NCBI GenBank assembly: GCA_003024175.1
Contig: MDYQ01000283.1
Coordinates: forward strand, 1 to 31,573
DNA from: Planoprotostelium fungivorum
Taxonomy: Eukaryota > Evosea > Variosea > Cavosteliida > Cavosteliaceae
Direction: 5' to 3'
DNA length: 31,573 nucleotides
In this document: positions 1 through 31,573 of the stretch, in pieces
Layout of the letters: every line of letters starts with the position of its first letter
How positions within the stretch are numbered: position 1 is the first letter of the stretch
The notes under the pieces: model-generated
The model's input: only the letters and a program-made list of their open reading frames with translations
What the model was told of the DNA's origin: nothing
The model's database searches: none
Translations under genes and position numbers: made by a program

Positions 1-1966
1 TGATTCAGACTTGATTCAAAACAACGCCACGGGCAGTGGTGGAGCTGTGTACGTCATATCTGGAGGCGGGGTTTCGAACAAGAGGACGAATACTGCCACG
101 ATGAATCTGTACGGAGAGAAATTTCGCGGAAATGTGGCGGGAAACTTGGGAGGAGCTATGAGTGTGGGAGGAGGAGCTACGGTGAAGATGAATGAGGGAT
201 CTATGTCTGGCAATACGGCCGCGGAGGGAGGTGACAGTGTCGTCACGTCATCGAGCGGCTCTCTACAACTATCGGGTGTGGAGAATTCAGGGACGGTATT
301 GATCGAATCATCTTCCACCGTGAGTCGGATATCTGTGATGCGCATTCGTGTCACTCATTCGATGTCTATCATCTCAATATAAAAAACAAATCGTCATCCA
401 TCTTTTGATCATCCCGATGATGATCTGATCAACCAACAGTTGATCGTGAACGACGGTACCACTGGAGCAGACGTAAGATGTAACACCGGAGAGGCACAGA
501 AATCTTCAGACGGCTCCTACTCTTGCGTCGTTCACCCCACGAAGAACACAGGACTCATCGTGGGCCTAACCCTCGGCCTTCTCTTCCTCGTCACGCTCGT
601 CACCGTAGTCACTCTCTTCGTTTGGAGGTGAAACATGAATATTTCGACATCATAACTCGTTCACATCTGAAACGTCAAACAGAAACACGGTGAACCAGAG
701 GAGAGAAGAAGAACAGAGCATATTGGCCCTCACGAGCGCTCTGGGAAGAGATAGAGAGGGCGTCATCGATTACGAAGAGTTGAAGAACGTGACGGAGACC
801 CCTCTGACGAAGAGAGGAGGAGTCATGGTGGCAGAATGGAGGGCCATCCGTGTGTCCGTCAAACAGATCGACGGGAGATTCGGCTTCGAAGAGTTATCGG
901 CCTTTCTGAAGCAAGTGGCGGTGCTGAGAGATATGAAAAGACATCCGAATGTCGTTCTGTTCTTGGGAATCACCGTACCACCGCAGATTCTGTCAATCAT
1001 CACGGTGGGAGAATACATCACAAACATGATGATCACCACGATCATCACGATGATGACGTCATCGTGTGTCTCATCATGGACGTTCTCATGTGATGATAGG
1101 AATTCGCTGACGGAGGAAATCTTCGTGATCTATTGAGAGACGATCGTGAGATCGATTACAAGATCAAGTTACAATACATGGCCCAGATTGCATTGGGAAT
1201 GAATCATCTACATTCAGAAGGAATCGTCCACAAGTGAGATCCTCTCTATCACACTCTCGCCTCACACTTCATGAGAGAGCTATCTGCGGAGAACATTCTC
1301 ATCACAAAGTCCACGGTGAAGATCTCTGGGTTTGGCTTGTCTCAGTTGAAGCCAAAGAACAAAATGGAGAGACTCAAGACATCCGCGAAATATATGGCCC
1401 CCGAATGTGAGCAGACGAACACATAATGATGGAGATCATGAGATGATGAGATGATGGAGATAGAATTGAACGATGCCAGGTATATCGAGCGAGATATCCA
1501 ATCGTGAGACCGACGTCTATTCCTTCTCTATATTGGCGTGGGAGATCCTCCACGGCACGGAGCCGTACGCATTCTCTTCACCGATCGAGATCGCCGTGAG
1601 CGTATCGCAGGGTGGAAGGCCTCCAGTGGATGATTCACTTCTAGGGATGCTCTTGGCGGGTGAGAGTCTATCTGCTTTCTCTTCGTCTCTCACTGATGGC
1701 CGTCAGACTGCTGGGCCGACAGCCCCAACGTGCGTCCCACATTCAACGTGAGTCGTAAATCACGAGTCTTCTCTTAGATTCTGACATTAACTCTGCAGGA
1801 CATCTGCGTAGCATTAGAGAGGATGGGAACGATATCGAGAGAAGAGAGAGACGATGATGTGGAGATGATGACACCAGAGAGGGGCCATTATTCTGGAATC
1901 CGATACAATAGCAGTTTCCGCACGAAGAGTGTCATCGTAGAGACACCTTACCAAGAAGAATCGTAA
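1..1966 (+). CDS. Receptor-like TKL-type pseudokinase, 5' partial
   Basis: The 3' part of a single-pass receptor. The first exon (to about 319) encodes Gly/Asn-rich repeats of the type GGAxxxxxN, as in beta-helix polymorphic outer-membrane-type repeats. The next exon (440-627) has a Cys-containing juxtamembrane stretch and one membrane segment (GLIVGLTLGLLFLVTLVTVV). Exons from 683 carry a tyrosine-kinase-like domain: VSVKQI (lysine present), an alphaC Glu in FEELSAFLKQ, HSEGIVHKELSAENIL, KISGFGLS, MAPE, ETDVYSFSILAWEIL and DCWADSPNVRPTF. Introns lie at about 320-439, 628-682, 1005-1099, 1234-1275, 1407-1479, 1660-1696 and 1749-1799. The tail ends PYQEES, stop 1964-1966. The HRD Asp reads Glu and the DFG Asp reads Gly, so phosphotransfer is doubtful. 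The start lies outside the window. The membrane topology and family are clear; ligand and pathway are unknown. Confidence 0.85.
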
Positions 1967-3490: not shown

Positions 3491-4680
3491 GGTGAATAAT
3501 GAATTCATCGCCGCGGACGAACGAGATCCTCCCGCACTGACTTGTGTTCTACGGACATCTGACATCAAGGGTGGCTTAAGCACTTCTGCGCGACGAGAAG
3601 TAGCAACGCTTTCTTGAGAGATGGGCAGTAGCTTAACATCGTCTACGGTTCAGAATGGGCTCGACAGCTCACTTGTGCTTTAAGAAGACGAGGTGGTCCA
3701 ATCGCAGCCACAAGAACAGTAGGAGGAGCTCGCACGTCACCTGTTGACTGAGAGTTGTCACGAGGACCATATCTTTAACGGAGAAAGGTATGTGAGAATG
3801 CGAGGCTGTGGAAATATGCTTAGGCGTGCATCCTTCCTTTTCCGCTCTGATACAGCCACATCACACCGTGATGGACTCTAAAAATAGGTGAGAAGCTAAG
3901 CGTTGAGACGCTCAGTGCACCTTTGTGAATACTGCATGACTGACCGAACTCAACCGTGGAAAATGCCACCACCATGACAATTAGGAAGAAGAGAAGATGA
4001 CAGACAGTTGATATGTTGTTGAACGAGATGCCGAAAATCTACATCGAGTCAGGAGCATAAATTTAACACCACGAGAGGACGACAAATGTATTTTGTTAGA
4101 AGTGGAAATGACTTCGATGATAAAGCTTGATTGTAGCGTGTTGTGGAAGATTATATTGAAACATAACATTCATCTTATTGGTAGCATTCATTTGGTCGGA
4201 AAACTTGCATTCGAGATCTCCAGCCGAGTCACCGAGATTCCAAAGTTGAACCCGCTCGTCGGGTGCTGATCTTGCCATGAGACAGCTTCTTTATTGCTGC
4301 TGCACTCCTCCACCTCTTCCTCTGTGAATCGATTGACATACGACACATTCGATGTCGTACTGCCTCATTGTAGTTCGGAGAATCGGAGGCAGTTCTCCCG
4401 GCTTCCGAAAATTCCGTTCCATCACAAATCACAAACCCCAACAACAGACAACCGCTCATCATCATGTTCTCCACTCGTGCTCTCTTTCGAAAGCTGAATG
4501 ACAGTGTCACATTAGACGAGACGAATCGAATCAAGAGCAAGGCTCATCGTCTGAGGCGTCACGTTTGGTGATGGAACATCATTCGTAGGTAGCTCATCTG
4601 CCTTCAGCACTTGTGCTTCTGTGTCTCAGACTACCTGCAGTCGTCAGTCGGTCGATGTTCAATCACCTCGAAGACAGACC
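3491..4680. other. Divergent intergenic region, no supported complete gene
   Basis: About 1.2 kb between the glucanase (leftward) and PanB-PanE (rightward). Only short overlapping ORFs on both strands are visible, none with recognisable motifs. It should hold both promoters. One candidate exon is worth noting: an ATG at 4463 opens a 35-codon stretch beginning MFSTRALFRKL that could splice in frame into the PanB-PanE first exon (see findings). Confidence 0.5.
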
Positions 4681-7369
4681 ATGGGATCCAGTCGTCCGCG
4701 AAGTCTGACGCCATCTTCTTTCTCTCATTCCGATGGGATCAGAAGAAGGTAAGAGATACCTGTTCGTGTCATCGTTCCTCCCTCTCCATTGTGATTGTGG
4801 ATTGCCCGTGTTCCCATGTTACGTGTCCATTTTCCATCGCGATGGAGGTGTCACCTCTGATCCGAACAGAGGCTACTCCACCCATGCAGACAAGCCACAG
4901 AAGAAGGGTCTACCCGACCTTATGAACAAGTATCAATCTCACACTCCCATTACAATGGTCACAGCATACGATTACACCGGCGCCTACAACGTTGATGCCG
5001 CGGGTATAGACATGCTTCTGGTGGGTGACTCTCTCGCAATGACTATGATGGGTCACGATTCGACACACCACGTCACTATGGATGAGATGTTGCACCACTG
5101 CAAGGCCGTGGCAAACGGTGTCCATTCTTCATTTGTCGTGGGGGACATGCCATTCGGATCCTATGAAGTATCTCCTCAAGAGGCAGCCCGTAACGCCATT
5201 CGATTAGTGAAGGGTGAGTCTAATCTTCTCCCAATTTTGTTCAATCACATCCTCACATCGCTCATCCATCAATTCATTCTCAATCATGGACAGAGGGAAG
5301 AGTAGATGCCATCAAATTAGAGGGAGGAAAGAGAGTCGTCGAGTCCGTTCGTTCCATCGTCGCCGCTGGCATCACCGTCGTGGGTCACATCGGGTTGACG
5401 CCACAGACAGCCACGGCATTGGGAGGCTTCAAAGCTCAAGGCAGGACTGCCAACGAGGCCAAGAGACTGTTAGAGGATGCATTGGCTTTACAAGAATCTG
5501 GTGCTTCCTTCCTCGTCATGGAGTGTGTGCCGGAGATATTGGCCAGTCACGTCACGAAGCAGCTGCAAATTCCAACCATCGGTGAGAATTCCTCATCTCA
5601 TCTTTTTCTTTCGCTCATGATATCAATATATTCCCGATTTTATTTCATTTTCAAGTCACACACCTTCCATTGAACGATTTCCAGGCATCGGCGCTGGCTT
5701 AGGCTGTAGTGGTCAAGTGTTAGTGTACCACGATATGCTTGGAATTTATCCCAAATTTACTCCAAAATTCAGCAAGCAGTACGCCGACCTGGGTAGTCAA
5801 GTGAGGAAGGCCCTCACAGAATTTAGAAACGAAGTAACCAATCGAACTTTTCCCGCCAAACAACACACGTTCAACATGAAGACGGAGGAGTTCTCCGCGG
5901 CTTTTCCAGAGGTGGAGGTAGCCAATCAGAAGCCAAAGAAGGTGAAGCCGGCCGCTCCTCTGTTCATCACCCCAGAGCCAAAAAAAGTGAGTTATATCCA
6001 TCTACAACGAGCCATCATCGATCAGATAGATGTGGAGGGAGAAATTCGGAAGAATGACGGAAGAATAGGTCATCACGGTGGTAGGTGGTGGTGCGATGGC
6101 CTCGCTCGTGTGTGCACGTTTGGCTGCCACAGGTCAACACGATGTGTGGATGATCTCATCGTGGGCTGAGCACATGGACATCATCAACCGATCGGGTCTC
6201 ATCATCCAGAACACCGACAGGTGATCACATCATCATCATCACTCCATCACAATCATCATCACATCATCACATCATCACTCGACCGGAAAATTGACGGAAG
6301 AATTCAGATCGACCCAGAGAGTCCACTTCCGCGCCACAGCCACACCCGATGAGGTGAGGCTCCACCTCATCTTCACCTCGCTCATGATTTCTATTTTTAG
6401 GTCCTGCAGACCTCCGGACCTTCCGACTTGACCATCGTCCTCGTCAAATCGCCTCAGACCCAACAGGCCGCGCAAGTGGCCGCACGGGTCACACGGTGTG
6501 GCACGGGAGCCGTGTTGACCCTGCAGAACGGCGTGGGCAACCGCGAGATACTCTCTGAGGCCGTGAGCGACCCGGAAATGTGAGTGACGATCTACAACGA
6601 GCCGAAGATAGTGACGATCTACAACGAGCCAATGACTATTTTTAGGGTGGTACAGGGTGTGACCAGCCAAGCTTCTTACGTGGTTCAGAGTGGGTTGGTG
6701 TGGCACACGGGCCACGGCCCCACGACTATTTCTGGGAATCATCGATCTACAACGCTCATCGCGGACGTACTGACGAGGGCGGGAATACCGTGTGGAATGA
6801 GTGATAACTTGGACAAGATGCTGTGGAGCAAGTTGATCGTCAATGCCGGTATCAATCCGCTCACCGCTCTGCTTCGTGTCAAGGTGATGAGGAATTCTCA
6901 TCGTCATGAAGCATCATCGACATCACCATCACGAGCATCTCCATCATCTCCATCATCTCCATCATCTCCATCATCTCCATCATAACAAATCAAATGAACT
7001 GCGATGACGATCACCTCATGTCTCCCATCTCACCCCACTCAGAATGGCGTCATCGCAGAGAACACTCGCGCCCTCGGTATCCTTAGAGAGACCGTCCGAG
7101 AGGGAGTAGAAGTCGCACACGCACGCGGTATAGACATTGCGGGCCCAGAGCAGTCTCTCGAGAACGTCTTGGCTGTCGCCAGAGCTACACGTGACAACAC
7201 ATCCTCCATGCTGGTCGATCTGATGAGGGGTGCGACGACCGAGATCGAATCCATCAACGGGGCCATCGTTAGAGATGGAGAGAAGTACCATGTGCCCACG
7301 AAGACGAACCGCATGCTGTGCGATCTCGTGTCGATGGCGGGGGGAATATCGACTCCTCTGTTGATTTGA
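4681..7369 (+). CDS. Fused ketopantoate hydroxymethyltransferase / ketopantoate reductase (PanB-PanE)
   Basis: Nine exons (4681-4748, 4870-5213, 5294-5581, 5685-5986, 6069-6220, 6308-6353, 6401-6579, 6646-6883, 7043-7369) join in phase to 647 aa. The start has a GACCATGG context; the first about 25 residues are Ser/Arg-rich and end RRRGYST, like a mitochondrial presequence. The N-terminal half is PanB: MVTAYDYTGAY, MLLVGDSLAMTMMGHDST, VVGDMPFGSYE, DAIKLEGG, VGHIGLTPQT, LVMECVPE, TIGIGAG. A Lys/Pro-rich linker (about residues 310-335) leads into PanE: VITVVGGGAMAS (nucleotide-binding loop), LTLQNGVGN, and MLWSKLIVNAGINPLTAL with the family's conserved Lys and Asn. Together they would convert 2-oxoisovalerate to ketopantoate and then to pantoate for vitamin B5 and CoA synthesis. 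No domain lacks a recognised core motif. Confidence 0.92.
5999..6013 (+). repeat. Intronic repeat motif, copy in PanB-PanE intron 4
   Basis: The intron 5987-6068 holds CATCTACAACGAGCC. The same core occurs twice in intron 6580-6645 of the same gene, and the left half (TCTACAACG) is shared with the palindromes seen in other introns of the window. Confidence 0.5.
6584..6630 (+). repeat. 20-nt direct repeat, two copies within one intron
   Basis: In the intron 6580-6645 a 20-nt unit starting GTGACGATCTACAACG occurs at 6584-6603 and again at 6611-6630. Each copy starts with a GT that resembles a splice donor, so the repeat may have duplicated the intron's 5' part. Confidence 0.8.
6936..6983 (+). 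repeat. 9-nt tandem repeat (CATCTCCAT) in an intron
   Basis: About five tandem copies of a 9-nt unit inside the 159-nt intron 6884-7042 of PanB-PanE. It accounts for much of the intron's extra length over its neighbours; a simple microsatellite-like expansion. Confidence 0.85.
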
Positions 7370-7557
7370 AGAGGGAAGTGCCAGAGAACTCCATTAGACG
7401 TACGTCACATGTGATGTGGTGCTTGAAGAGAAGGAAAAATAGAAATAAATAGATTTGTAGACGGTCTCAGAAATTTCGGAGATTTTCACCCACCTTCTTC
7501 ATCTAGAAGCGACAACCATCACGAGACAATCATACGCGCACGAATCTACGATATAGA

Positions 7558-10500
7558 ATGACGTCAATTCAAGCTGAGTTGACTCCTGTTCAAGCTCATT
7601 ATCTGAAGAAGAAACTCATTCAACTCCAATTGAATCAAGAGTTGAACAAGCTACAACAGTCGGGTGGCTTAGGGAAACTGGGTCATCCTTTCCGAACAAA
7701 AGAGGTCGACCCCGTGCCCATCAGCTCGTACATCTTTCAGAATTTTGTGTTGACCTTCCCCTTCTTGGATGGTGCCACTCAGAATTTCTGGACGGACAAA
7801 GTTCAGGTGACGTCACAGTCACTCGACGATCGAATCGTGTGCCGATTTCTAAAGATTACATTCGTGTGTCACATCACGAGTCTCACTTTGCACAGACTTT
7901 CGTGGACAATTTCTTCGACAGAAATATCTCCAGCTCCGACGACAGAGAGGAAGCCACCAAGAGGAGCCGCTTGATGAACCGATTGGAGAGGCACTGTGTC
8001 GGTTTTCTGAACGCTTCCATCAAGTGCGAACAGAAGGAATCCACGGTAGAAGTTCAAGAAGTCGAAGGAGAAGCCATGAGTGACGAAGAGAGAGACATGA
8101 TCAACGGCTACGACATCAATGTCGTGGCAGTGAGAGTTGTAGAAGAGAAGGGAAGGTTGAATCTGAGGACGCACACGTGGCCGGTGAGATATTTTACACA
8201 CGACATCACCATCTGATTTGTCCATCCAGGAGTTCATCATCAGAACAGCTAGACCAGGCAAAGACCCCATTTACGTCTGCAAGCGTTACGAAGACGTAGA
8301 GACCCTCCGAAAAGAGGTATACCCTCATCATCATCTCACACCGATCGCACCTGATCGACCCAAACAGCTGCACAGCGAATACCCTGAGGTCAACTTACCT
8401 TCCATTCCATCCAAAGAGCAAGGAGACGTACACTTGCAAGAGTCGAGCGGCTCGAAAGGTGAGGAGATTTCCTCGAGATTTCACACTCACACGCAAGAGT
8501 GTACCCATTCGAGAAGAATCGAATTACCATGAGATCTTTTCTGAGGCAGCTGGTATTGAAGGCGACACTGGCCGGTTCCCCGGAACTGGACCATTTCCTG
8601 GAAAAGAACCCCATACAGCTGACGGGCTGGGACAGAGATGACGTGGCCGATCGCATCCACGCTGATCGCGCCAGAGCCGAAGAAGCGAAGAGGTGAATGT
8701 CATCGAAATTTCACGTTACGTACGAATTTGTCCGTCTCCACCTTCATCTTGTGTACTACTCTCGTTTTACCCTCATCCATCTACACTGCGATTGTAGATG
8801 AACATCGCGTAGGTTCGAAGAAGAAGCCAATCGACTGACGGAGGACTTGCAAGAGCACTGGAACGCCTTCAAGGTGATATTCCACCGCACCACTGTCCCT
8901 GATCTTCCCAGGACGAACTCCTCCACTCCACCGAGAACGTCATTCGAAAGATCGGAGAATGTTCTACGGTGGAGCAGCTCCCCCTTCGCTATCGCAAGGT
9001 ATTAGACTGTGGCACGGTATCCCTCGCCTGGACCCTCTACAGCTTCTTCATGGGAGAAGACAACAGCTCGGAGCTCTTCAGACAATTGAAGAACATGCAC
9101 AGCTACACGCCCTACTTCCTCTTCAAGAATGCAATGAAGATATCGAACCCAATGGGTATCGTCAGGGGTGAGATATAGATGATATATCTCATACATCAGA
9201 TATCAAAAGTAATTCACATATGCTAGAGATATTTCATCTCATGTTCTCCGTGTATGTAGAGCTAAGAATAGAGTGATGACGTCATCAGGTATGTTGGACA
9301 TCCTCTTAGCACAACCGTTCGGTCAACGCAGTCTCATCCAGAGGTGAAAATCATTTTCATCTCGAAAATCGATGGTCTACAACGTTGTAGATTGACACAC
9401 TCAGGATGTTCGGTTGGACGTTGAACGACGAAGTGAAGGCCATAACGAAGGACGTAGAGGCTCTATTGGAGAAGGGGGCATCCACACGTTACCGTCTCAA
9501 ATTAGTCAACTTTGTCCATCTGCCTGCAGAATATCAGAGAGGAATGAGACAAGCGGCAGCCAAGAGTGGAGAGCCTCTCGTTCTGTGCATCTTAACCAGC
9601 GACAATCTGGCTCCCATCTTGTCCTCCGAAGAGATGAAGGTGACCCAAACGGACGATGGAAAATTCTCGTACGTTTCTGAGAAAATTCCAGGAAGTGGAG
9701 ACGATGAGACTGACGTGTCAGTTGAAGAAGGAAGGAAAGAAGTTGACCATTCTGTATCGATCGATACACGAGAAGTATGAGATGTACCACAAGATATTTC
9801 AATTGGAGACGAGAAAGAGGGACAAGACACAATTATCCGAGCTCGTGTTCGAGGTGAGTTCGCAGATTCGCGGATTCGCGGATTCGCGGATTCGCGTTCG
9901 CAGATTCGAGAGATTGACTGGTGTAGGGAGTCACGGCGGAGTTGTTAAAAGAGACGTTGACGATTTTCTATGAACCACTGGCGAGAGTGTACAAGGCAGC
10001 TGACATCTCTGGCTGCGTCGACGACTTTAAGAACTTTGCAGAAGATCTCATTCAGACCGTAGAAGCGGTGGGAATCTTCTCTGATCTTTTCTCGAGATTT
10101 CCACGAATATTCCAAGAAAATCTGAGAAAAATCTGAGAAATATAGGTGGAGAAGAGAGGGGGAGGACTCAGCTCAGGCGACACAGTCAGGATGTTCGTTG
10201 ACTTAGTCAAGAGACACCAATCTGCATTCTACCGTTTCATCCACGAAGGTATTCCATCTACAACGTTGTAGACGACTCATCCTCTCAGTCTACACGCACG
10301 ACAACGGGCTCTTTGTAGAGGTCGTCGGCTGGATGAAGAGGTTCTTAGATCTATTACGATCTGGATTCCCGTCCCAAATACATCTGGGAGATCTCATCCA
10401 AGAAACTTCTCAGAAGACGGGTGGGATATTTCCTGGTAGTTTCCTGGGAAAGATCTGAGAAATTCTCAGATGTAGACGTTGGAGAGTTGATGTGGGAGAT

Positions 10501-11356: not shown

Positions 11357-13305
11357 ATGAGGACGGCTGGTGTCTTATTGGGACTTCTCTCCATCGTCCT
11401 TGCGAGGAACGTCTACATCGGCTCGCTCAACAGTGGCATCTGGATCTTCCAGCAGAATGGAGACGGATCTCTCAGTCAAGTGGGCAACCCTGTGACGAGT
11501 GAGTTCTATCGCTCGATAGGGGAGTCGTCCATAGCTGATCCGATATGTTCAGGCAGCTCTGGATTTGTAGCTCTTCACCCCAATGGACAGAACCTCTTCG
11601 CAACGGGTGCGATCCATTACTCCATTGACCTCGATTGACGATGGAATCAGGAGCAGGCGACCAATATGTGTCTTACGGAATGCAAGGAAACAATCTCGTC
11701 TAGTGAGAGCCCATATCAGACATCCCATCCTGACTTTTACAGCTACAACTCGCTCCCTGGACACGATGGACAGGAGTGCTGGACCACTCATGTCAGCGTT
11801 CACCCTGATGGAAAGACCTTGTTCGGTGCCAACTACAAGGATGGATCCTTCGTCGCATACAGCCTCTGGGATAATGGTGCTCTCAACAGGAGAACCTTCT
11901 TGAACGTCCCTGGAACGGGAAGTCACGGAGACAAGACCGACCAACACAGACAGGTATTTGCATTCCGTCTCCATACATCGACATATCATCATATCCCATT
12001 TCACATGTCACAAATCACCATCTCATTTCGACTCCGTCTCACCTCCTCCAGGACGGTCCCCACGCCCACATGATCGTCACATCCCCCAACCCCAAATTTG
12101 TCGTCGGCATGGATCTCGGTGCCGATCGCATCTGGGTGTGGAAGTACAACAGCCAGAACAATTCTCTCACCCCCAACCGTCCCCGCTCCTTCTCCACCCC
12201 CCTGGGAAGCGGTTCCCGCCACATCGCCTTCGGTCGAGACGGTAATTACGCTTACGTCGTCAACGAGATCGCCTGCACCCTCTTGGTCCTCAAATTCGAC
12301 CAGACGAACGGTATATTCTCTCAGGTGATGCATCGCACGTAGCGTACGTACGTACGCTACGTGTGGGAGGGTGGGACTGACACGGTATCAGGTGCAGCTC
12401 ATTTCGAGTCTGCCGCAGGACCAGCAGGGACAGACCTCCATCTCTGCCGGAGAGATCAGAGTCCATCCCAGTGGAAACTTTGTGTACGTAACCAACCGTA
12501 ACACATGGGCGGGTGACATGAACAACATTGGAATCTTCAGCATCAACACCACCACTGGAATGGTCACCCCGGTTGCCTGGGAACCCTCTCGATCTCGCAG
12601 CCCCAGAGGTAATCCATCTACATCGTTGTAGATCATCCTCTCTCCTTTTATTCTCTTTTATTCTCACCTCACCTTTTATCTTCCCTTTATTCTCTTTTAT
12701 TTACGTCTTCCAGGAATGAACGTGTGTCCCAGCGGCAATTACCTCTACGTCGCCAACGAAGAGGCCGACAACAACGGCAACAACCTCTTCGCCTTCAATG
12801 TGGACACCTCCACCGGCAGGCTCTCCCTCTTTGGAAGCTACAGCACAAAGGGCTCGGCCTCTGACGTGGAGTTTACCTACGAGAAACTTTCACCCGTCCC
12901 CCAGCCCACTACCAGCCGCACCTTTTCGTCTACAAGCCGCCACAGTACGTCCACGGTGACTCCGTCTACAACGACCAGCGTGGGAGATATTTCTCTCGGC
13001 ATGGATCGATGGGGAGGAGACATGGACAACATGCCCGTGTGGGCAGATGGACCTCAGGGATGTCAACAGCAGTGCTACTCTACATCGGGTGAGCTTCATC
13101 ATCGTAAAGACGATGACCATCGCGATGGACTTCAACATGATGACGAGCATCATCTTCTTGTCTTTTAGATGCTGAACAGAGAGCAGGTTGTGTCGCGTGG
13201 GCTTACAACACCTGCGATGGAGGTAACTGCTGGCTCAAGAATTCAAACTCTTCTCCTTACTCTTCCAACTGCCGCGCCACCGGCACTATCTTTGGTAGAG
13301 TCTAA
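11357..13305 (+). CDS. Secreted lactonase-type beta-propeller with C-terminal PAN domain
   Basis: Eight exons (11357-11498, 11553-11606, 11651-11702, 11743-11953, 12052-12324, 12392-12608, 12714-13088, 13169-13305) join in phase to 486 aa. A signal peptide (MRTAGVLLGLLSIVLA) is followed by repeated propeller blades of the 6-phosphogluconolactonase/YbhE type: ALHPNGQNLFATG, VSVHPDGKTLFGANY, DGPHAHMIVTSPN, FVVGMDLGADRIWVW, GSRHIAFGRDGNYAYVVNE, VHPSGNFVYVTNR, CPSGNYLYVANEE. After a Thr/Ser/Pro-rich linker (about residues 365-400) comes a PAN-like module: GDMDNMPVWADGPQGCQQQC, GCVAWAYNTC, NCWLKNSN. A cytosolic pentose-phosphate role is unlikely because of the signal peptide; a secreted lactonase or a carbohydrate/protein-binding propeller is more likely (inference). 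Confidence 0.88.
12336..12363. repeat. 28-nt perfect palindrome inside an intron
   Basis: CACGTAGCGTACGT followed directly by its exact reverse complement, ending GTG at 12363. It fills the middle of the 67-nt intron 12325-12391 of the lactonase-PAN gene and could fold into a hairpin in the pre-mRNA. Confidence 0.9.
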
Positions 13306-15678: not shown

Positions 15679-16724
15679 ATGGCGAAGAGATGCATCGGTG
15701 ATTACTACATACGAGACACCATTGGACAGGGGACCTTCTCGAAGGTCAAGATGGGGGTTCATATGAAGACAGGAAAGAGGGTAGCTCTCAAGGTGTGACG
15801 TGATGCGACATGTTCGAGTCGTAACCGCTAATTGTGATGTTAGTTCATCGATACAGATGTGGCAGAAAAGACAGTTGGTATGACTCAATTAGAGAGGGAG
15901 ATCGACATCCACTCAAAATTAGACCACCCCAACGTCGCCAAGCTCATCGAAGTCATACGACAAGACGATCGAGGGAGGATCTGCCTTGTCATGGAACACG
16001 TAGAAGGAACCGACCTGTTAGACTTGATGCTAGATTCACCCAAAGGCAAATTCTCGGAGAAGGAGGTGAGGTCACCGTCGTTTGTTGTGATTGATGGATC
16101 TCAGGCTGCCTTCTATTTTTCACAAATCACATCCGCTGTATCATACATCCACGAGAGAGACATCGCTCACAGGTGTGATGTCTTCCTCCATGCAACCTCA
16201 CATGTGACAGAGACATCAAACTAGAGAACGTCATGGTCGCAGCGAACGGTCATTGTAAACTCATCGACTTTGGTTTCTCTCGAAAGATCAGCATTCAAAG
16301 TCCAATCATGCGAACACCGTGTGGTTCCAGCCTCTACTCTGCACCGGAGATCATGTTGAGAAAGAAATACTGTGGCAAACAGACCGACATGTGGAGTCTG
16401 GGCGTTCTCCTCTATTCACTCGTCTCTGGCTCTGTGAGTAGTTCTTCTGATGGACGATCGACTCATGTATCATTGCAGGTGCCGTGGGCGGGTGCAGATA
16501 TCCATAAGAAGCGATGTCACGCGGTGAAGGGAGAATATGTACCATTAGAAGAGGCGTCTCCTGCACTCCAGAATCTCATCATGGGCTGTCTGTGTGTGGC
16601 TCCATCAGATCGAATGACTTCAATGGAGGCATCATCACACGAATGGACGAGAGCCAGAGAAAAGGGGATGAAACGGAAATTGAGTGGGAAATTAACGAGA
16701 ATTATAAAGAGGATGATGACGTAG
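15679..16724 (+). CDS. Ser/Thr protein kinase, CAMK/SNF1-like, complete
   Basis: Five exons (15679-15792, 15844-16065, 16105-16172, 16211-16433, 16479-16724) give 290 aa, nearly all kinase domain. Motifs in order: IGQGTFSKVKMG (Gly loop), RVALK (catalytic Lys), LEREIDIHSKLDHPN (alphaC Glu), CLVMEHVEGTDLLDLM (hinge), YIHERDIAHRDIKLENV (HRD; an intron splits the Arg codon), LIDFGFSRK (DFG), CGSSLYSAPEI (activation loop to APE), DMWSLGVLLYSLVSG, and SDRMTSMEASSHEW near the end. All catalytic residues are present, so it should be active. The basic tail MKRKLSGKLTRIIKRM could bind membranes or a regulator. There is no UBA or KA1 domain. It resembles the broken kinase at 25.9-26.6 kb. The 44-bp gap to the convergent hydrolase gene implies overlapping 3' signals. 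Confidence 0.92.
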
Positions 16725-16768: not shown

Positions 16769-18050
16769 TTAATGACTTCCGTTCTGCAGTGCACTCTCCT
16801 TTTCTCTCCTGAGGAAGAAAGGCACGAGCAGCTCTACCAATTGGCTCGACTTTTCAAATTGAATGTTGTGGTTACCAGAGGGGATTTCAGCTCTGACCAA
16901 GACACCAGCAGTGGTTCTCGGTTTCTTTAGACGTTCTACGAGTAAGTTGATGTCGGAAATGGACACCAGTCTGCAAAGGGAGATCAGATGATGGAATCGC
17001 TGATGTGTGATGGAAATTGGATGATGAAGGTAATTAGCGACGTCATGTTCTTCAGTCCAGAAAAACAAAATAAAATGTATGCTGAAATTTAAAAGATGAT
17101 CGGTGATGATGATCTCCACCTGTCGTGCTGTCCTCTCACGATGAGAGTGGGAACGTTGACGTTGAGGTTCGTGTTGATGAGAGGGTTGTCCGTTAAGAAC
17201 TTGAGTGCTGATAGTGAGAAGTTGACCCAACCCATCTGAGCCCACATGCAGAGGTGACAAAAGTTGAACAAGTGGCTCTCACTCATGGCATTCTGCAGAG
17301 ATGTGAGTGATGTCCACGTGCACGTCGATGGTGGTCGGCATCACCTTGATCGTGTTGAGGAAATACTCTAGAAAGGTATGATTCTGGCCCATGGTGGGGC
17401 TGATGAGTACCATGCTGGCTGCCATCTCTGGGTAATGATTGATGAAAGATAACACGACCTACGAGTGTGAATGACAGACGAGGTGCTTCTATCACTTGGC
17501 ATCCTGCAGAAGCTCCCACGATGTGTGCCTTTGGAATGTTCAATGCTTTCATGAATTGGGATAGCCACTCGGACATTTCATTGATTGAATGTCCTGTACT
17601 GAGTCTTCCTCTGGACTTGCCAAAGCCTGGAAAATCGGGAGCGATGACAACTGGGGTCTATGAATTCAAGTCGTAGAACATGTGTAGTGTTTGTGTTGGC
17701 ATCGCGTGAAACTCACGTGGCTGATGTGCCTGATTTTCACTCCTCTTCAAGAAATCTCTGAGTGTGGGGTGGAAATCAAATGAGGACTTTCCAATGCCGT
17801 GAACGAGGATGATGGGATAATGTGTCGTCTCTGTGGAGTCGTAACTGAGCGTCGAGTGGATCCTGTGATGAAGTGCGCTCCTCTGTTCGTTGGCTGATTG
17901 CGCCTCACGCTTCGAGCCCTTCACATATCGAAAGTTGGCCAATCGATTTGCCACTTTGATTCGCTGAGAGGATACTCTTCCTCCTTTGAAGAGGACGTAT
18001 AAGGTCTCTATTGTCCATAAGATGAAGGAGCAGATGTAGTAGAGGACCAT
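16769..18050 (-). CDS. Membrane-anchored alpha/beta hydrolase
   Basis: The chosen start (18050, ATGG context) opens with a hydrophobic segment, LYYICSFILWTIETLYVLF, a likely signal anchor; an in-frame ATG lies upstream at 18227. Downstream exons give PIILVHGIGKSSFDFHP (oxyanion loop HG), VVIAPDFPGFGKS, AHIVGASAGCQVIE (nucleophile elbow G-x-S-x-G), VVLSFINHYPEMAASMVLIS, VPTLIVRGQHDR (acid Asp) and AEIPSGNHNIQFEKS (His). The Ser-Asp-His triad is therefore complete. Exons are separated by short introns near 17660-17716, 17463-17513, 17285-17310, and 16970-17115. The family covers esterases, lipases and epoxide hydrolases; substrate cannot be told from sequence. The C-terminal exon ends 44 bp from the convergent kinase stop. 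Confidence 0.85.
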
Positions 18051-18397: not shown

Positions 18398-19630
18398 ATG
18401 GCAGCGGAGATACCAGAGGATCTGACCTCTCTCTTACAGAAGTGCAGCCAAGCAGTCGAGGAATTCGTAAATCTAGCCACCGATTATGATGCATTTGTCA
18501 TCGGCTTCAACAAGAACCCAGATCGTGAGAGACATTCGACCTGACTCCAAACTCACGCTATCAGCTCCTCCTAACGACAAGCAATGGACCAAACTGATCA
18601 AAAAGATCAAAGAGTCTAGAACCAGCGCGGGGAATTGTGAGAGGTAAGAGACACACGCGATCACTCCTGACCTATTTAGACTCCTCACAACGGGTCTAGA
18701 TGGTCTATCGAAAGTAGCCGCGGACGATAAGAAGCGTAAGAAGGGTATTTTATTCATTTTATTCTTCTTCTCATGCGGTGCAGCTACGGGACCAGCGGCA
18801 CACCCTACCGTGGGAGCGAAGAGGTTTAAAGGAGACTCCACCTTCTCCATTCCTAAAGGGAGACAAGTGGCTGCACGAGTTACAAAAGACAGGGAAGACC
18901 CCGAAGCTTGGATCTTGGCAGCTATCGTTTCTTACGATGAACACAAACAACAGTGAGGGAGTGGATGGAGGATGAGATTGTGATGGTCATTACAGGTATG
19001 AGGTAGAAGATGAAGACCCCGGAGATGAGAGTGAGCCCAATCCATATAGAAAGTGAGACCCTCCGACCTCGTGATGGAGATGTTCACATGAGCAGGCACT
19101 ATTTCTTACCATGTCACTGTCTCATTCCTCTCCCAGCTGAAACGGACAAGGTGATTAAATCTATTTTCTGTCGATTTTAATTCACGTAGTTGAAAGAGAT
19201 ACCCAAAGGCACGAAGGTCCTGTCGATGTTTCCAGACACCACGTCTTTCTACGTGGCAGAGGTGGTGAATCCACCGAAGGGGGTGAGAGTTTTACATGAG
19301 ATCACGTGTGGGTGACATCACCAGAAGAAAAATCCAGAATACACCGTCAAGTTTGAAGATGATGATGATGAGACGGGAGAGACTCCAGAGAGGAGAGTGA
19401 AACCAAAGTACGTGTGTCTGCGAGAGAACACTGCAAAATCTTGAGAATAAATTGGAGTTGTTGTGGTTATCGCTGTCGTATCTCTCTGCCCAAGGAAGGT
19501 ATGGATGTCTTCTTGTCGACAACGTCAGATGCAAGAGAACGAGTGCTCAAACCTTTGCACATCATGATCTCACCCTCTCAAAGTCTGCTGTGTAACACAC
19601 ATCCGATCACATCATGCCGCGTGACTTAAG
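18398..19630 (+). CDS. SGF29-like SAGA/histone-reader subunit
   Basis: ATG at 18398 starts a short helical N-terminus (LTSLLQKCSQAVEEFVNLAT). Exons 18398-18524, 18565-18643, 18680-18735, 18784-18952, 18996-19052, 19096-19150, 19190-19282 and 19325-about 19412 join in phase. The C-terminal half matches the double-Tudor SGF29 domain: GRQVAARVTKDREDPEAWIL, AAIVSYDEHK, YEVEDEDPGDESEP, CHCLIPLPAETD, IPKGTKVLSMFPDTTSFYVA, EVVNPPKG, YTVKFEDDDDE and RRVKPKYV. In yeast and animals this domain reads H3K4 methylation and anchors SAGA or ATAC acetyltransferase complexes; the acidic YEVEDEDP and the F/YVAEVV strands are the family's core. The last exon is uncertain: a frame through 19,460-19,629 (CRISLPKEGMDVF) or an earlier stop are both possible. 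Confidence 0.88.
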
Positions 19631-21420: not shown

Positions 21421-23575
21421 TGCCTCGTACCAGCATTCTAAGTCTGTGGGATTGATCATGTTGTGTTTGCTGAGTGGGTGGCTGTGTATGAGTTCTTCCC
21501 CTGTTCGCTGAACGTGTTTGAGCACCTCTACAAATAGACACCCACCACCTAAATTTCACACATTTTGAGGCACATCATCGGCATGGGAGTAAGTCCATAC
21601 TGACCGTAGGTGCGTGATGTATCACCGATCAAATCATTCTCCTGATCGTCTCAGACAACTTGTACCTAGATCTCAATGGAGTCTTTCATCGCAGCCGAGA
21701 GGTGGTCAAGGTGACTGAACACGAATAGATTATCAACGTTATGAACCCTAATCAGAGGGTTGTATCTTGTAATCGATGGTGTTCATCCAGCAACCAAGAT
21801 CAGCCAACAGAGACAAAGATATTCACAATATGTATCAAAATGCAAGCAGAGGGGACAGGGTGTGCACCTGACTCATAAGCAGACGATCGTCGGAATTGAT
21901 GAGATCAGGTTTCGAAATCGATAGAGGCAATGCAAAAAAAAAACAAATGAACAAATGAGACGTTAATATCCATCAGTCACCTGGATTGATTCTATTCAGA
22001 TCGATGAAGAATCACAGACGGATGACCTCGATTCCTTCTTTCACCGGGAGTCTTTCTCTTTAGAGGAGTAAGTGATATCCATCGCGACCACCATCATCCA
22101 TCGTCTCATGTGCCTACCAGATGGAGATATGGAGGTGGCCATCACTCCCGGAAGCGGCTTCATGTATCGATTGTCTTTGAGAATGACATCGTGGATTCAT
22201 CACAAGATCATGTCTGATGAAAGAAGGAAGAAGCCAAAGATATTCTTCTCCGGCGTTGAAGGTCTATCCGTACACAAAGACCGATGTATGGTGCTAAGAG
22301 AATGTCCTTTCCAGCGTCACAATCCATCTCAGGTCTCATCGCGGCTCGTTATAGATCGACTGAACTTCGCAGTTTATGACGAGAGAATTATTCCAATTGG
22401 TCGACTTTTCTATTCTGAGGACTTATATCGATGAAAAAGTGAGGAGCAAGTATCGTGAGATATTGAAGGAGGGAAGATGAGCAACAGAATGCGGAAAGTT
22501 AGAATAATACAACGCGGAAAAGATCGTGGACGATTTCATACTCACTCTGTTTGTGGAAATGATTTCCTTCCCGCAGTTCCCACTCTGGACATCCGAGAGA
22601 GTGAGATCGTCTACAATGTTGTAGATTGACAAAGTCAGGTGCCCTACATTATTTCTTCGGACTGTACGCGGACGTACTGAGTGAGAGTATGAACGGTTAC
22701 ATCACGGACAGGTATCTCTTCTGCAACGAGACAAATCTGACAAAGATAGAAGGAGGGCTGAGATCCATTGGCTCAGAACTTTCATGGAAAAGTTGGCAGT
22801 TTTGGAGGAAGCGGTGCTGAAGGAGAGACTGGTACAATTGAAGCAAAGGTAAATTAATGCGAAATTTCGACGCAAATCGATCTAAATTTTATCAGTTTTC
22901 CCAAATGGAAAAATGTACTCTCTAGACCTGAAACTGCTCGATCCGATCTACAACCAGCCACGTCTCAATCAATTAAGACGACAGATGAGCCCCTCACGTT
23001 ACCAGTGGGATATGTGATGGTACAAAGATGGACGAAAATTGACCGAAATTTCAGGTCGGCATACATTGATACTGGTAAGAGTGAGATCCTTGGAGTTAAA
23101 TCTTCGCAGATTGTCCTTGAACACTTAATGATGGGAACGGATGAGACGCAGATGATCAGCAGTGATGCAGATAATCAGATCCTCATCAGATCGGCATGAC
23201 ACAAAAGGTGTGATCGTCGAGATATCACACGTCATTCCATGCGATATCATGGCAAGATGCGTGGGTCTCTTGTGTCGTGTTGATGAGAAATTCTCATCAT
23301 CATCATGAAGACTGATGGAAGCAGATGAAACTGCACACGATCTATTTAGATTGTCCAAGTGACCAATTACCATACAGAATGTAAATCTACATAAATCGTC
23401 CGGTGAGTAAAGTATCTACATCGTTGTAGATGGACTGATGACTCTAGAACATTAGATTCTCAGATCTAGGTCAACTCTCAACAGAGGTTGTCATTGTAAT
23501 TCCAAGACAATTCAGAGAATTGTTCCCGCTCGATTTCGTGAAGATGCAGAACGTCAGTCACGTGACTGTGAGTTC

Positions 23576-23625
23576 CTCATCACATCATCACATCATCACA
23601 TCATCACATCATCACACCATCATCG
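23576..23625 (+). repeat. 9-nt tandem repeat (CACATCATC) in an intron-like stretch
   Basis: About five copies of CACATCATC between a GTGAGTTCC donor and an acceptor near 23650 within the XRN-type pseudogene; similar CATCATC runs occur in PanB-PanE intron 6221-6307. Confidence 0.75.
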
Positions 23626-24058
23626 AACGACACGTGCATTGATCTCTTCAGATTCTATGAACAGAGATGGACGTGACGATGAGATCACATCAGGTCGATC
23701 CATCATCTTGTTCGGTCTCCCTACCGCCGGTTTAGACCTCCAAATTGAAGAGAGTCCCACGCAAAAGATGGAAGAAGAGGAAGCATCACACACAGACGAC
23801 TCTTCGAGGACCCTCTAAGAGAGAGATACAGGTGACATCCGACATCAGATGACGAAGTTGAATGAGACAGATTCGACCAGAGACACTCTTCACACGTGTA
23901 TAGATGGGGAAGTATTTCGATTCGATTCGTGGAAGAATAAATATCGCGAAAAATGTGGAGTGAAAGGTGAGGCGACATGTGATCTGATCTCACGAGAAGA
24001 GTAGATGATGCACAGAAAGAGGAGATGGTGAAGACATATCTGAGGTGAGGATGCAGAT

Positions 24059-24087
24059 GACATCAGATCATTGGATGATCTGATGTC
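24059..24087. repeat. Perfect 13-bp hairpin inside an intron
   Basis: GACATCAGATCAT, a 3-nt loop (TGG), then ATGATCTGATGTC, all between a GTGAGG donor (24044) and the acceptor at 24093-24094 in the XRN-type pseudogene. The stem occupies more than half of the intron. Confidence 0.85.
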
Positions 24088-24639
24088 GAACAGAGGCCTA
24101 AGTTTGGAATTATCAGTATTATTGTAGAGGATGCATCTCTTGGAATTTCATCTATCCTCACCATTACGCCCCGACCGCATCAGACATCGTCGAATACCTG
24201 AATAATTCGAGTGGTCCATCTCAAGGTGAGTCATCGGTGATGTCTATATCAACATCAGATGATGATGCATCGTAGAGTTTGAGTTGAGCAATCCTCTTAC
24301 ACCTCTCGCTCACCTGTTGGTGGTTCTTTCGAAGAAGAATGTAAAACAATTGCCCGGCGTTAAGACAATGGGTCGAATCTGGACATGCAGATGTGATCTC
24401 AACCGATGAAGATGCATTGGACCTCGATGTGGAGGGTGCTAGATTTCCTTGAGAATGTAAGATCCTCTTGTAATTTATAGACGTTAAGGGGTGAACTGCT
24501 CTGATGTGATCATTAGACGCTGAAGAATGAAGAGCACAAGATATGGTGGGATCATTAGAGTCCAAGATGACGGAAGAAGAGAGAAGACTGAACCAAACTG
24601 GTTCTCAAATCAACTTTTGATCTCTCGTAAACTCTTTTA

Positions 24640-25760
24640 TCCAATCCGGGCAGAGAGAGAAGGCTGCAGCCATCGCCGATGCATCCATAGCTGCCTCACC
24701 CGACGCCGTGACCACCCTATCAATGAAGTACGTAAAGTGATGAGTTTTCCACGAGATCTCGATGACACATCAATTGACACGCCCAGATTGGCATTCAGCG
24801 AACGGAGAAGGAAGTAATCCATCCGATTTGAGATCATTGTACAGGAGAAGAGCCAATTAGAACAGTAGCTGGCCATCCTAGAGGAGACATTTCAATCGGA
24901 GAGGGCATAAGTGGCCTCTGAACAGAAAAGAAGGCCACCAGCAACGAGAGGCGAGACACGGATCAGGCGCAGCTGATGGAACAAATTGAGCAACTGAGCA
25001 TCATGAGAAGCAATCTCATGTTCAGAGAGTAGAGCGAGAAGGCCGCACAAGAGAATGGCACAGCTGGAGGAAGAATCCGAAGCTCTGAATCGAAAAATGT
25101 AGCCCATCAACACGGAAAGAGCTTCTGGTGAGAGTGATGATTTTGAAATGGGCTGAAGAAGGATGGGTATCAAAGGATCGATCCCTCGACACATCAGATG
25201 TTAGTGGACAAGCGTGCCAAGCTGGAAGAGAGCCACCAGACGCTGAGCTCGAGGCTGACTTCCCTTTAGATGTCTTACAAGTCGGTAGGGCAGAAGATGC
25301 AGTCGTTGGATACTCTGTCTGTGGAACAGAAGTTGGCGTCCTCTTGATGTGATGGCTCGTTCTTCTCAGAAGCAGATCGATCAATTGGAAGGAAAGTGCA
25401 GCAATTTAGAAGATTAGTTGGGTGAGATGACCAAGTCCAAGGAGGCTGCCAACAAAGTGAAGAACATGAAGAAATTAGCCGAAGCACAAGAAATACCAAG
25501 GTGACGTCATAGAGAAGAGTCAGCTGAGGGAGCCAATGGTAGTGCTCCCGGTACCACCCCTGCTACCACTCATACTCCACAAGTACACCAACGCCTACAC
25601 CTGCTGCCGCACCCATAGCTACACCTTCTGCCGCTCCCTCACTGGCTACCGCTTGTCGGTCAAGACCACCGTTATCGTCAAAACATTGTCTCCAGCCGCT
25701 GCCACCCTAGCCCAGCAGTACATCCAACGGCTACAGCGACAAGGCTCTCCCTAGCCCCCG
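24640..25760 (+). pseudogene. Broken coiled-coil gene with Ala/Pro-rich tail
   Basis: Heptad-like pieces rich in Glu, Lys, Leu and Gln appear in changing frames: REKAAAIADASIAASPDAVT (about 24655), LAILEETFQSERA, MAQLEEESEALNRKM (about 25055), VDKRAKLEESHQTLSSRL (25204), MSYKSVGQKMQSLDTLSVEQ, QKQIDQLEGKCSNLED (about 25368) and LGEMTKSKEAANKVKNMKKL. Each piece ends at or runs through an in-frame stop (for example after RKM, after RLTSL and after NLED). A Pro/Ala/Thr-rich region follows (25536-25760). The parent was probably a long coiled-coil protein; whether it was fused to the preceding nuclease or the following kinase cannot be told. Confidence 0.6.
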
Positions 25761-25956
25761 TGGTTGTTCTCCGTTACAACACCAGTGGCCTCTCCAATGA
25801 CGGGTGTTGACTCACCTGCCGTCAAGAGAGCAGAACTAAGACAGCAACACCACCGGCCAGGCGGCAGAAACCCAAAGACTCATCAAGGGATGGAAGATAG
25901 GCATGATGGTATGTTGTCATGATCCATTTTTGGCTATGACTGATGAAAAGACAGAT

Positions 25957-26630
25957 AGATCATCGATGACAAAAAACTGAAGGAGAGTCTATACTGGACC
26001 ATATTTCGGAGGGAGATGGCGATCCACAAAAGATGTTGGATGACCCCAGTATTGTCAAGATGATAGAGGTCGTACAAGTCCCAAAACACGGCTACACTTG
26101 TCTCGTCCCGGAATGTTTGGAAGACATCGATCTCTTAGACTTGTCCTGTCCCAACCCCAGGCCAGATTTAACCCCAACTATCGCAGGGAAGATCTTTGTC
26201 AAATTGGAGAACATGCTGGTCAATCTCCCAATCTCATCGACTTGGGCCTTGCCAACCGAGTCGAGGCCAATAAGCTCTCCAAAACACCATGTAAGCGTCA
26301 AGCATAATACGGTCCTTTGACATCTGGAATCTTGGAGTTGTTTTGTATTGTAGTCATCTTCATCATCTTCCAATGTCCATCTGATTACATATGTAGCCAT
26401 CATCACTGTAATGATTCCGTGGATGGGAGAGAGTGGCCCAGAACAACTCTGCAACACTTTCTACGGTAGCTGGTTAGACAACGTCATCACTGGGGTCTCC
26501 GTCAAGCACATCTTGACGCAATACTTGACGGTCGATTACCAAGTGAGAGCCGCCGTTCAGGAATGAAAGGCTGATTTGAAGGAAGAGCAACCGTATTAGT
26601 ACCATTCCTCACTATCTCCTTTGGTACATC
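25957..26630 (+). pseudogene. Broken Ser/Thr protein kinase
   Basis: Kinase motifs in the correct order but in different frames: IIDDKKLKESLYWTIFRREM then AIHKR (alphaC), LDDPSIVKMIEVV, CLVPECLEDIDLLDL (hinge), KLENMLVN (catalytic loop, HRD missing), LIDLGLANRVEANKLSKTPC (DFG region reads DLG), FDIWNLGVVLYC, IPWMGESGPEQLCN, and LTVDYQVRAAVQE followed by a stop. The pieces match the intact kinase at 15679-16724 (REIDIHSKLDHPNVAKLIEV, DLLDLM, IKLENV, DMWSLGVLLY, VPWAG), and an apparent intron sits at the same place before PW. A decayed relative rather than a direct recent copy. Confidence 0.75.
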
Positions 26631-26639
26631 ATCTCTGTG

Positions 26640-29223: not shown

Positions 29224-29307
29224 GTCATCACCTTTGCATTCATCACAAACAGCCGGACAAGTCCCTCTTACCACGTTGGGTGCGCGTCATCAATCGTCAT
29301 CAAAGTC

Positions 29308-29740
29308 CATAATGCTGGTGGGCCTCAGTCAGAGTGGAAAGAGCTTGATTGGTAATGATGTCCTCTGCTCCAAGTCAAAAAGTGGAGCCGAATTTCAAGT
29401 AGGAACTGAATCTTGCACTACGAAAGCATACATCCTGACAAAGAGACGAAAGACTATGACGATCTGACGAAAGAAGAGATGTTGGATGTAGTGAGAGGCA
29501 GAGAGGAACTGTCAGTCGTGCAGACAAAGCACAAGATGAAGGTGATGGTCGTTGTAGACGGACAGTCACGTGACCACAGATAGATTGGACTGGCGGGATT
29601 AATCCTAGGCGATAGTGAAGCTAGAGAATGCATGGTAGATCTTGGCAAGATGCTGAAAAAATGCAAGCCCATCTCTTGTGTTGTGCTCTGTTCAAGTATC
29701 CCACACTTCTGGATGATGACCGGGATATCTTCTCACAAGT
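29308..29740 (+). pseudogene. AIG1/GIMAP-like GTPase fragment
   Basis: IMLVGLSQSGKSLIGNDVL contains a P-loop (GxxxxGKS) followed by the GND seen in AIG1-type GTPases, and FQVGTESCTTKAY matches the switch I region. After a frame change at about 29430 the product continues YDDLTKEEMLDVV, KMKVMVVVDG (G3 strand, without a clear DTPG), a stop at 29581, then SEARECMVDLGKMLKKCKPI and SCVVLC. No G4/G5 motif was found. A real P-loop start but a broken reading frame, so annotated as a remnant. Confidence 0.5.
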
Positions 29741-29881
29741 GATGAATGGATAATTGAAATCTATTGGTTGAATCTTATCCGTAGAGATCACCACGATCTG
29801 TCCTCTTCCTTTCATTGCCTTCAGCCATCATCTTATCATCATCTTATCATCATCTTTCCATCCACCATCTCACCTTGTCAG

Positions 29882-30187
29882 ATATTATATAAGAGTGTAG
29901 CTCTCACTGTGAATGGTTTGGCAGGAAGGACCTTGTTACATTGTGGTACTATCTTTTACTATGCAACCCAAGTGAATGTCAATGATGGTGTTGCGTTTAG
30001 CTTCTCTCGAGTTTCTTCTATAGGAACTCTTTCAACTCATCCTGCATTGGCAATATCGACTTCTACTAATCTGCAGCCTACATCTCTAATGCATTTAGCG
30101 GTCGTTATCAACCTGAATTCTGCTTTGATCACCTGGGCGACCGGCGAGCTGACGGTCGGCCTCATTTTCGCTGGAGTTGGGGTCTAA
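29882..30187 (+). other. Unrecognised exon-like open segment
   Basis: A pyrimidine-rich tract and CAG acceptor at about 29881 open a frame of about 100 codons to a stop at 30185-30187, with TQVNVNDGVAFSFSRVSSIG and LITWATGELTVGLIFAGVGV. It resembles a beta-rich C-terminus. No partner exon or family was recognised. Confidence 0.3.
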
Positions 30188-30383
30188 GTGAGGGTGCAGT
30201 CGGTCCACGTCTATTGGTCCCTTCTGTTCGTGTCAGTCGGTGATCTCCTCTTCTGTGAGTGGTCGCTGTGAGTCGAATTATCTCATCACACGTTATCACC
30301 CCTGACTGTGCATCTTTAGTATCACTTGCAGCGGCCTGGACGAGATCCTTGTCGAGCCCATTGTCAACACTTGACTATGCACT

Positions 30384-30680
30384 GTGAGGGGAAAGCATAT
30401 GACAGAGGATCAACAGTTTCTCTTCCACCTAACGGAAGACACACTAGACTCACCCGCCCAGCAATTGTACATCATGCTCAGGAAGATGAGACTGCTGGGA
30501 GGGCCAATGGTTGATCCGGATTACCAACGAAGGAAGAGAGCTGGAAGAAGCTCTTGCACAGACAGCTCAATGCTCCACCTACTTAGGAAAGCGAAGAACC
30601 AAGTGAAGATATCGATGGGAAGGAACAGACAGTGGACCTCTGATGCCCGATTAATGAGAGAAGTGAATGTCACCCGCTGA
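30384..30680 (+). other. 98-codon open segment, charged, unrecognised
   Basis: The frame contains MTEDQQFLFHLTEDTLDSPA and a basic C-terminal half. A second frame over 30535-30608 reads ELEEALAQTAQCSTYLGKRR, coiled-coil-like. It may be another decayed piece of the preceding GTPase-type gene or of a helical protein. No confident assignment. Confidence 0.25.
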
Positions 30681-30689
30681 ACTCACCCT

Positions 30690-31490: not shown

Positions 31491-31496
31491 TTGAAA

Positions 31497-31573
31497 ATGA
31501 GGGACTCTCGTCTCTTTGTCCAGTTGGTTAACCTTGAGAGTGATAAAATATGAGGGACTCTTGTCTCTTTGTC
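31497..31573 (+). repeat. 24-nt direct repeat spaced 53 nt at the window end
   Basis: ATGAGGGACTCTYGTCTCTTTGTC occurs at 31497-31520 and 31550-31573 with one mismatch (C/T). A tract AAAAT/AAAATAT precedes each copy. The array may continue beyond the window. Confidence 0.85.

Follow-up and report, generated by a model that had tools for sequence, protein, structure and literature searches.

Two consecutive enzymes of pantoate synthesis, PanB and PanE, are encoded side by side at this locus, which raises the question of whether they form one bifunctional protein or two separate ones, and of how such an arrangement could have arisen. The window (the whole 31,573-nucleotide stretch of DNA analysed) contains a nine-exon gene model on the plus strand, spanning 4681-7369, with the following features.

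4681..4748 (+): exon 1, ATG start of the nine-exon model and a basic, Ser-rich N-terminus
4870..5213 (+): exon 2, PanB domain (Asp76, Asp115)
5294..5581 (+): exon 3, PanB domain (Lys145, Glu147, Glu214)
5685..5986 (+): exon 4, end of the PanB domain and the linker (about residues 298-334)
5987..6068 (+): intron 4, 82 nt, phase 0, donor GTGAGT, at the PanB/PanE junction
6069..6220 (+): exon 5, first PanE exon, with VITVVGGGAM, nucleotide-binding loop
6308..6353 (+): exon 6, PanE
6401..6579 (+): exon 7, PanE (Lys416, Asn443)
6646..6883 (+): exon 8, PanE (catalytic Lys522, Asn526, Asn530)
7043..7369 (+): exon 9, PanE C-terminal domain (Asn540, Asn591, Ser594, Glu606) and TGA stop
7444..7449 (+): AATAAA, candidate polyadenylation signal about 75 nt 3' of the stop

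Gene model and enzyme domains

The first-pass annotation had proposed a nine-exon frame of 648 codons with the core motifs of both enzymes intact. The frame holds: the exons total exactly 1944 nt, or 648 codons including the stop (647 residues), and all eight introns, 47-159 nt long, are of the GT..AG type. The donor of exon 1, GTAAGA, scores 10.0 in a matrix of all eight introns, itself included, and 6.8 when left out of the matrix. Reading by eye, we also observed abundant CATCATC and CATCTC repeats in introns 5 and 8, and a word, ATCTACAACGAGCC, that recurs in introns 4 and 7.

Both enzyme families are recognized over nearly their full length. Residues 37-291 match PF02548 with 370.2 bits (E 6.9e-111), covering profile positions 4-258 of 259, and the PanE half spans residues 336-636, made up of PF02558 (residues 336-489, E 1.2e-27) and PF08546 (residues 514-636, E 6.1e-35). 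The NCBIfam panB equivalog TIGR00222 scores 318.2 bits against a cut-off of 207.55, and apbA_panE (TIGR00745) 215.7 bits against 141.35, with both PanE Pfam subdomains present.

Catalytic residues were compared by alignment to E. coli K-12 PanB and PanE, with 11 and 14 positions inspected, respectively. E. coli PanB Asp45, Asp84, Lys112, Glu114 and Glu181, which we take to have metal-binding and catalytic roles, are kept as Asp76, Asp115, Lys145, Glu147 and Glu214; one of the 11 positions is changed (Ile212 to Val245). In the PanE half, Lys72, Asn98, Lys176, Asn180 and Asn184 are kept as Lys416, Asn443, Lys522, Asn526 and Asn530, and Asn194, Asn241, Ser244 and Glu256 as Asn540, Asn591, Ser594 and Glu606. 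With five catalytic or substrate-binding residues retained in PanB and nine in PanE, the annotated core motifs are indeed intact. Three of the 14 PanE positions are changed, namely Gly12 to Ala345, Arg31 to Ser365 and His120 to Gln468. Arg31 of E. coli PanE presumably contacts the NADPH phosphate, and only 13 of 73 bacterial relatives have Arg at this position. Because these three positions differ from E. coli, the cofactor used by the PanE half is uncertain. Roles in PanE are described, in the portions of the sources available to us, for Asn98, Lys176, Asn184, Asn194, Asn241 and Ser244 (PMC10127515) and for Lys72, Asn98, Lys176, Asn180, Ser244 and Glu256 (PMC3478992).

Other genes in the window were surveyed with a domain scan that covered the minus strand except 4683-9499 and 24799-31573. 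Upstream lies a tyrosine-kinase-like kinase gene (PF07714, about 1064-1628, plus strand), split over at least two frames, and directly downstream a gene of several exons with PX-associated PXB and DUF3818 domains (about 7570-10070, plus strand). Further along the plus strand are a seven-bladed propeller lactonase (PF10282, about 11780-12610) spread over several frames, a second protein kinase and an SGF29 tudor-like domain (about 15709-16646 and 19088-19414), and pieces of an XRN exonuclease (about 22135-24194); an alpha/beta hydrolase lies on the minus strand (about 17385-17816). Judged by these domains, the neighbourhood would fit a eukaryote.

The PanB/PanE junction

The junction had been placed at 5985-6070, behind a Lys/Pro-rich linker. 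Intron 4 occupies 5987-6068, in agreement with this placement, and the linker (about residues 298-334, some 37 residues) is Lys/Pro-rich toward its end (QKPKKVKPAAPLFITPEPKK). The splice junction falls between residues 334 and 335, and the ApbA Pfam match begins directly after it, at residue 336. In the alignment to E. coli PanE, Lys334, the last residue of exon 4, pairs with Met1, and Val335, the first of exon 5, with residue 2, which puts the phase-0 intron within one residue of the ancestral PanE start. By a rough, post hoc estimate, there is a chance of about 0.8% that one of eight randomly placed introns would lie directly before or after that codon.

The first PanE codon, in exon 5, is directly preceded by a TAG in the PanE frame. 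Within that exon no in-frame ATG occurs before residue 344, which already lies in the nucleotide-binding loop; initiation at this ATG would be predicted to cost the protein the first strand of its nucleotide-binding fold. Since the TAG lies directly upstream and the first ATG comes only at residue 344, PanE lacks a start site at the junction, and on this sequence a start there would need an unseen upstream exon. These features bear on the possibility that two tandem genes, panB and panE, have been wrongly joined. Such an arrangement would resemble that of bacterial relatives, in which panB and panE are separate neighbours, but the TAG, the late ATG and an ApbA match that begins right after the splice junction make it very improbable.

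A different alternative is that two products are formed, the fusion and, by retention of intron 4, PanB alone, with the cell setting the ratio of the two activities. If intron 4 is retained, the PanB frame stays open from exon 4 through the intron to a stop at 6167-6169, giving a tail of about 60 residues, and the acceptor of intron 4 scores only 0.8. However, its donor, GTGAGT, is strong (8.1, leave-one-out) and its length is like that of the other introns, and we consider regulated retention improbable. One bifunctional PanB-PanE protein is the best reading of the sequence, and one we hold with considerable confidence; predicted splicing joins both domains continuously, as expected from the initial description of two consecutive enzymes in one frame.

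N-terminus, proposed function and known fusions

The first-pass annotation had further suggested mitochondrial import from the N-terminus. The first 25 residues from the ATG at 4681 carry a net charge of +4, and the stretch R-G-Y-S-T within RRRGYSTH fits the R-2/R-3 processing motifs described in the available part of PMC7723863. The basic charge and the putative processing site agree with the suggestion, but the hydrophobic moment is no higher than that of shuffled sequences (531 of 1000 shuffles as high). Import into mitochondria is plausible on these grounds, though weakly indicated.

The gene model may begin too late. Enumeration of splice-site scores yields one candidate upstream feature.

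4464..4567 (+): possible further upstream exon, or upstream ORF, beginning MFSTRALFRKL...

A peptide opening of this kind is typical of many presequences. The exon would join exon 1 in frame through a GT..AG intron at 4568-4607 or 4568-4640, and if the ATG at 4464 is the true start, the part before the RG site, 24 residues in the nine-exon model, would have 72 or 83. The donor at 4568 (GTGATG) is fair, with a score of 4.9, and combines with exon starts at 4608 and 4641 to scores of 5.2 and 3.1. The two acceptors are weak (0.3 and -1.7), although poor acceptors are also found in the accepted introns 5 (-1.3) and 8 (-1.8). Against this start, the extra intron would be merely 40 or 73 nt long, the first 25 residues again have an unexceptional hydrophobic moment (413 of 1000 shuffles as high), and the 4464 frame may be an upstream ORF. 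A missed first exon is a serious but distinctly less probable possibility than a start at 4681.

From the sequence and the general properties of these families, we infer a single nuclear, spliced gene, transcribed as one mRNA, whose product would be an active bifunctional ketopantoate hydroxymethyltransferase-ketopantoate reductase. By family resemblance, the N-terminal, Mg-dependent PanB half would add a hydroxymethyl group from methylene-tetrahydrofolate to 2-ketoisovalerate, and the C-terminal PanE half would reduce ketopantoate to pantoate with NAD(P)H. The site of action is probably the mitochondrion, where 2-ketoisovalerate arises. The protein is most likely a conventional bifunctional enzyme for making pantoate, with a probable mitochondrial location, and the host organism would be expected to make its own pantoate.

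PanB commonly forms a decamer. Among the five PDB PanB sequences matched, ten chains are present in a single entry for three, ten are spread over two entries for a fourth, and the fifth has five. The PanB core of the fusion would probably be a large oligomer as well, around which the PanE halves could be carried on linkers of about 37 residues that are probably flexible. Such an assembly might keep ketopantoate production and reduction in a fixed ratio, with channelling only a hypothetical benefit. Stand-alone structures correspond to each half separately: PanB chains (1m3u, 1oy0) match the protein from residue 37-51 to 296-297, and PanE chains (1ks9, 5ayv, 3hwr) match the other half, 3hwr, for example, over 336-637. 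None of the 27 matched PDB sequences, which are 264-335 residues long, is a fused PanB-PanE chain.

The first-pass annotation had also mentioned similar pairings in other protists, and these are confirmed by the available portions of two papers. A bifunctional KPHMT-KPR is reported in Toxoplasma gondii (TGME49_257050) and other coccidia, as well as in Perkinsus marinus (PMC8764084, PMC8717973), and a trifunctional KPHMT-KPR-PBAL in the chromerids Vitrella and Chromera (PMC8717973). As far as these texts go, the T. gondii protein resembles that of the window in carrying both enzymes in the same named order, although the tagged protein is predicted at 144 kDa, compared with 647 residues here. 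The chromerid protein likewise includes both enzymes of the window protein, which, unlike it, lacks a PBAL/PanC domain (Pfam matches of the 647 residues, E 0.001). According to the parts of PMC8764084 available, the T. gondii enzyme is localized to the mitochondrion and, in cultured tachyzoites, is expressed but apparently inactive; deletion of its gene strongly reduces brain cysts in mice (PMC8764084, PMC8717973, same portions). Because that enzyme is reportedly inactive although expressed, intact motifs are no guarantee of flux.

The PanB-PanE fusion as such is therefore already known, and this gene adds another, compact case to those of alveolates. In the literature searched, mostly titles and the openings of abstracts, no PanB-PanE fusion outside alveolates was found, which is not proof of absence. 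If the host is amoebozoan, the fusion lies outside alveolates, which would imply great age, transfer or convergence. Being small, this fused enzyme might also serve as a convenient model for the larger Toxoplasma enzyme.

Prokaryotic relatives and possible origin

What is new here is a possible origin from two adjacent genes whose spacer turned into intron 4, a route that fits the data but is not proven. In a scan of a genome collection, considering the best 80 of at least 592 relatives, Chloroflexota rank first, and their panB and panE are adjacent. In all, 201 loci were collected, picked for similarity and including repeats of one locus; the groups of coded genomes were inferred by way of the named locus on which each search was centred. 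Directly adjoining genes in the order panB-panE occur at 58 of the 201 loci (36 Chloroflexota, 12 Desulfobacterota, 9 Bacillota and 1 labelled Proteobacteria), and panE directly precedes panB at 12 (4 Archaea, 4 Desulfobacterota, 3 Bacillota and 1 Chloroflexota). The reverse order is seen, for instance, at the Thermoproteota loci L025, L026, L045 and L055. No panB-panE pair was found at 34 alphaproteobacterial, 15 further pseudomonadotal (3 of them fetched for PanE) or 35 actinomycetotal loci, where a very divergent panE would escape detection.

In contrast to the window, the linked genes of Chloroflexota, Desulfobacterota and Bacillota encode two proteins, mostly in the window's order and with a short spacer. 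Stops separate panB from panE at all 15 junctions inspected, among the 21 loci that carry the pair, and none of 181 loci has both in one open frame. Large open-frame figures (e.g. 661 for G848) had suggested bacterial fusions, but none was found: 20 fetched regions show stops between the halves or long PanB-only frames. Among the matches listed, all eight search rows spanning both halves (one from the Chloroflexota search, four from that of Desulfobacterota and three from that of the Peptococcaceae phylum) likewise contain at least one stop.

Linked bacterial pairs include the highest-scoring prokaryotic PanB (up to about 60% identity) and are among the highest-scoring PanE (up to 44%). Among the matches listed, the best PanB reaches 341 bits in Chloroflexota (151 genomes, cut-off 1e-3) and, at a cut-off of 1e-40, 333 bits in Desulfobacterota (198 genomes), 332.5 in the phylum of a Peptococcaceae genome (149 genomes), 298 in Actinomycetota (198 genomes) and 264.6 in Pseudomonadota (249 genomes). 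The best PanE alone, again among the matches listed, scores 209 bits in the Chloroflexota search and 199 in the Peptococcaceae-phylum search; in Pseudomonadota it scores 106.2 bits, and a cut-off of 1e-25 is passed by 3 of 120 genomes.

The PanB tail offers a further comparison. The window's NMKTEE follows a pattern, xMxxEE, found in 15 of 28 readable linked Chloroflexota (2 of 30 unreadable), 4 of 7 linked Bacillota (all readable) and 3 of 8 readable linked Desulfobacterota (2 of 10 unreadable). It occurs in 6 of 24 readable Actinomycetota (9 of 33 unreadable), and in none of 25 readable Alphaproteobacteria (9 of 34 unreadable) or 10 readable other Pseudomonadota (2 of 12 unreadable). Two unlinked Chloroflexota, two unlinked Bacillota, two reverse-order Desulfobacterota and one reverse-order Chloroflexota also have it. 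As a sign of kinship, the shared tail is only suggestive.

Trees were built from the window and prokaryotic rows only. Quick trees used all 74 PanE rows and 131 of 177 PanB rows, and more careful ones 70 of the 74 PanE rows (four long rows dropped) and 81 of the 177 PanB rows (seven loci dropped, groups capped). In the careful PanE tree, the window groups with nine Chloroflexota with support of 98/85. Eight of these nine do not directly adjoin panB; these eight had been sampled for high PanE scores. For PanE, AU tests used groups defined once a tree had been inspected. They disfavour a clade uniting the window and two Pseudomonadota rows (p 0.033), and one uniting it and eleven from the linked-Desulfobacterota set (p 0.035), but do not disfavour a position just outside Chloroflexota (p 0.34). 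The window's PanB lies near Bacillota, without support, in the quick tree and has no supported place in the careful one; AU tests leave room for a clade with Chloroflexota (p 0.44) as well as for one with Pseudomonadota (p 0.25). Because PanE groups mostly with unlinked rows and PanB is unplaced, a single donor for both halves is not established. Descent from the mitochondrial ancestor appears disfavoured, since both halves find clearly weaker matches in Pseudomonadota, but is not rejected, given the p of 0.251 in the PanB test.

A eukaryote might have acquired a bacterial panB-panE pair, from a Chloroflexota-like or wider group, and fused it by intronization. In this scenario the short intergenic stretch carrying the stop of panB and the start of panE would have become intron 4, which would still mark the old PanE start. 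This fits the position of intron 4 within one residue of that start and the neighbourhood of the best distinct PanB rows, 14 of 18 of which adjoin panE (in Chloroflexota, Desulfobacterota or Bacillota). The other four do not; one of them, the row with the best PanB identity (L153, 61%), has no panE beside panB in the fetched stretch and speaks against an acquired pair. We judge the scenario unlikely, slightly more so because panB is not directly adjacent in eight of the nine rows with which the window's PanE clusters. Even so, a junction intron together with bacterial gene pairs suggests a specific way, open to testing, in which two genes could become one protein. If alveolate fusions share the intron or ancestry, one event would have spread among protists; if they do not, the event would be a repeated one, eased by an inherited neighbourhood.

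Additional panB copies were also observed. Six Chloroflexota genomes (G029, G066, G075, G083, G107 and G131) have two panB each, one beside panE and one distant, and six rows of distant copies (L165, L196 and L198-L201) form one tight set in the quick tree. A panB of 38% identity (L182:3001-3936) lies on a 192-kb contig of a viral collection, adjoining genes for a thiamine-pyrophosphate enzyme, an epimerase and an aminotransferase; it is perhaps part of a sugar cluster, or the contig is mislabelled.
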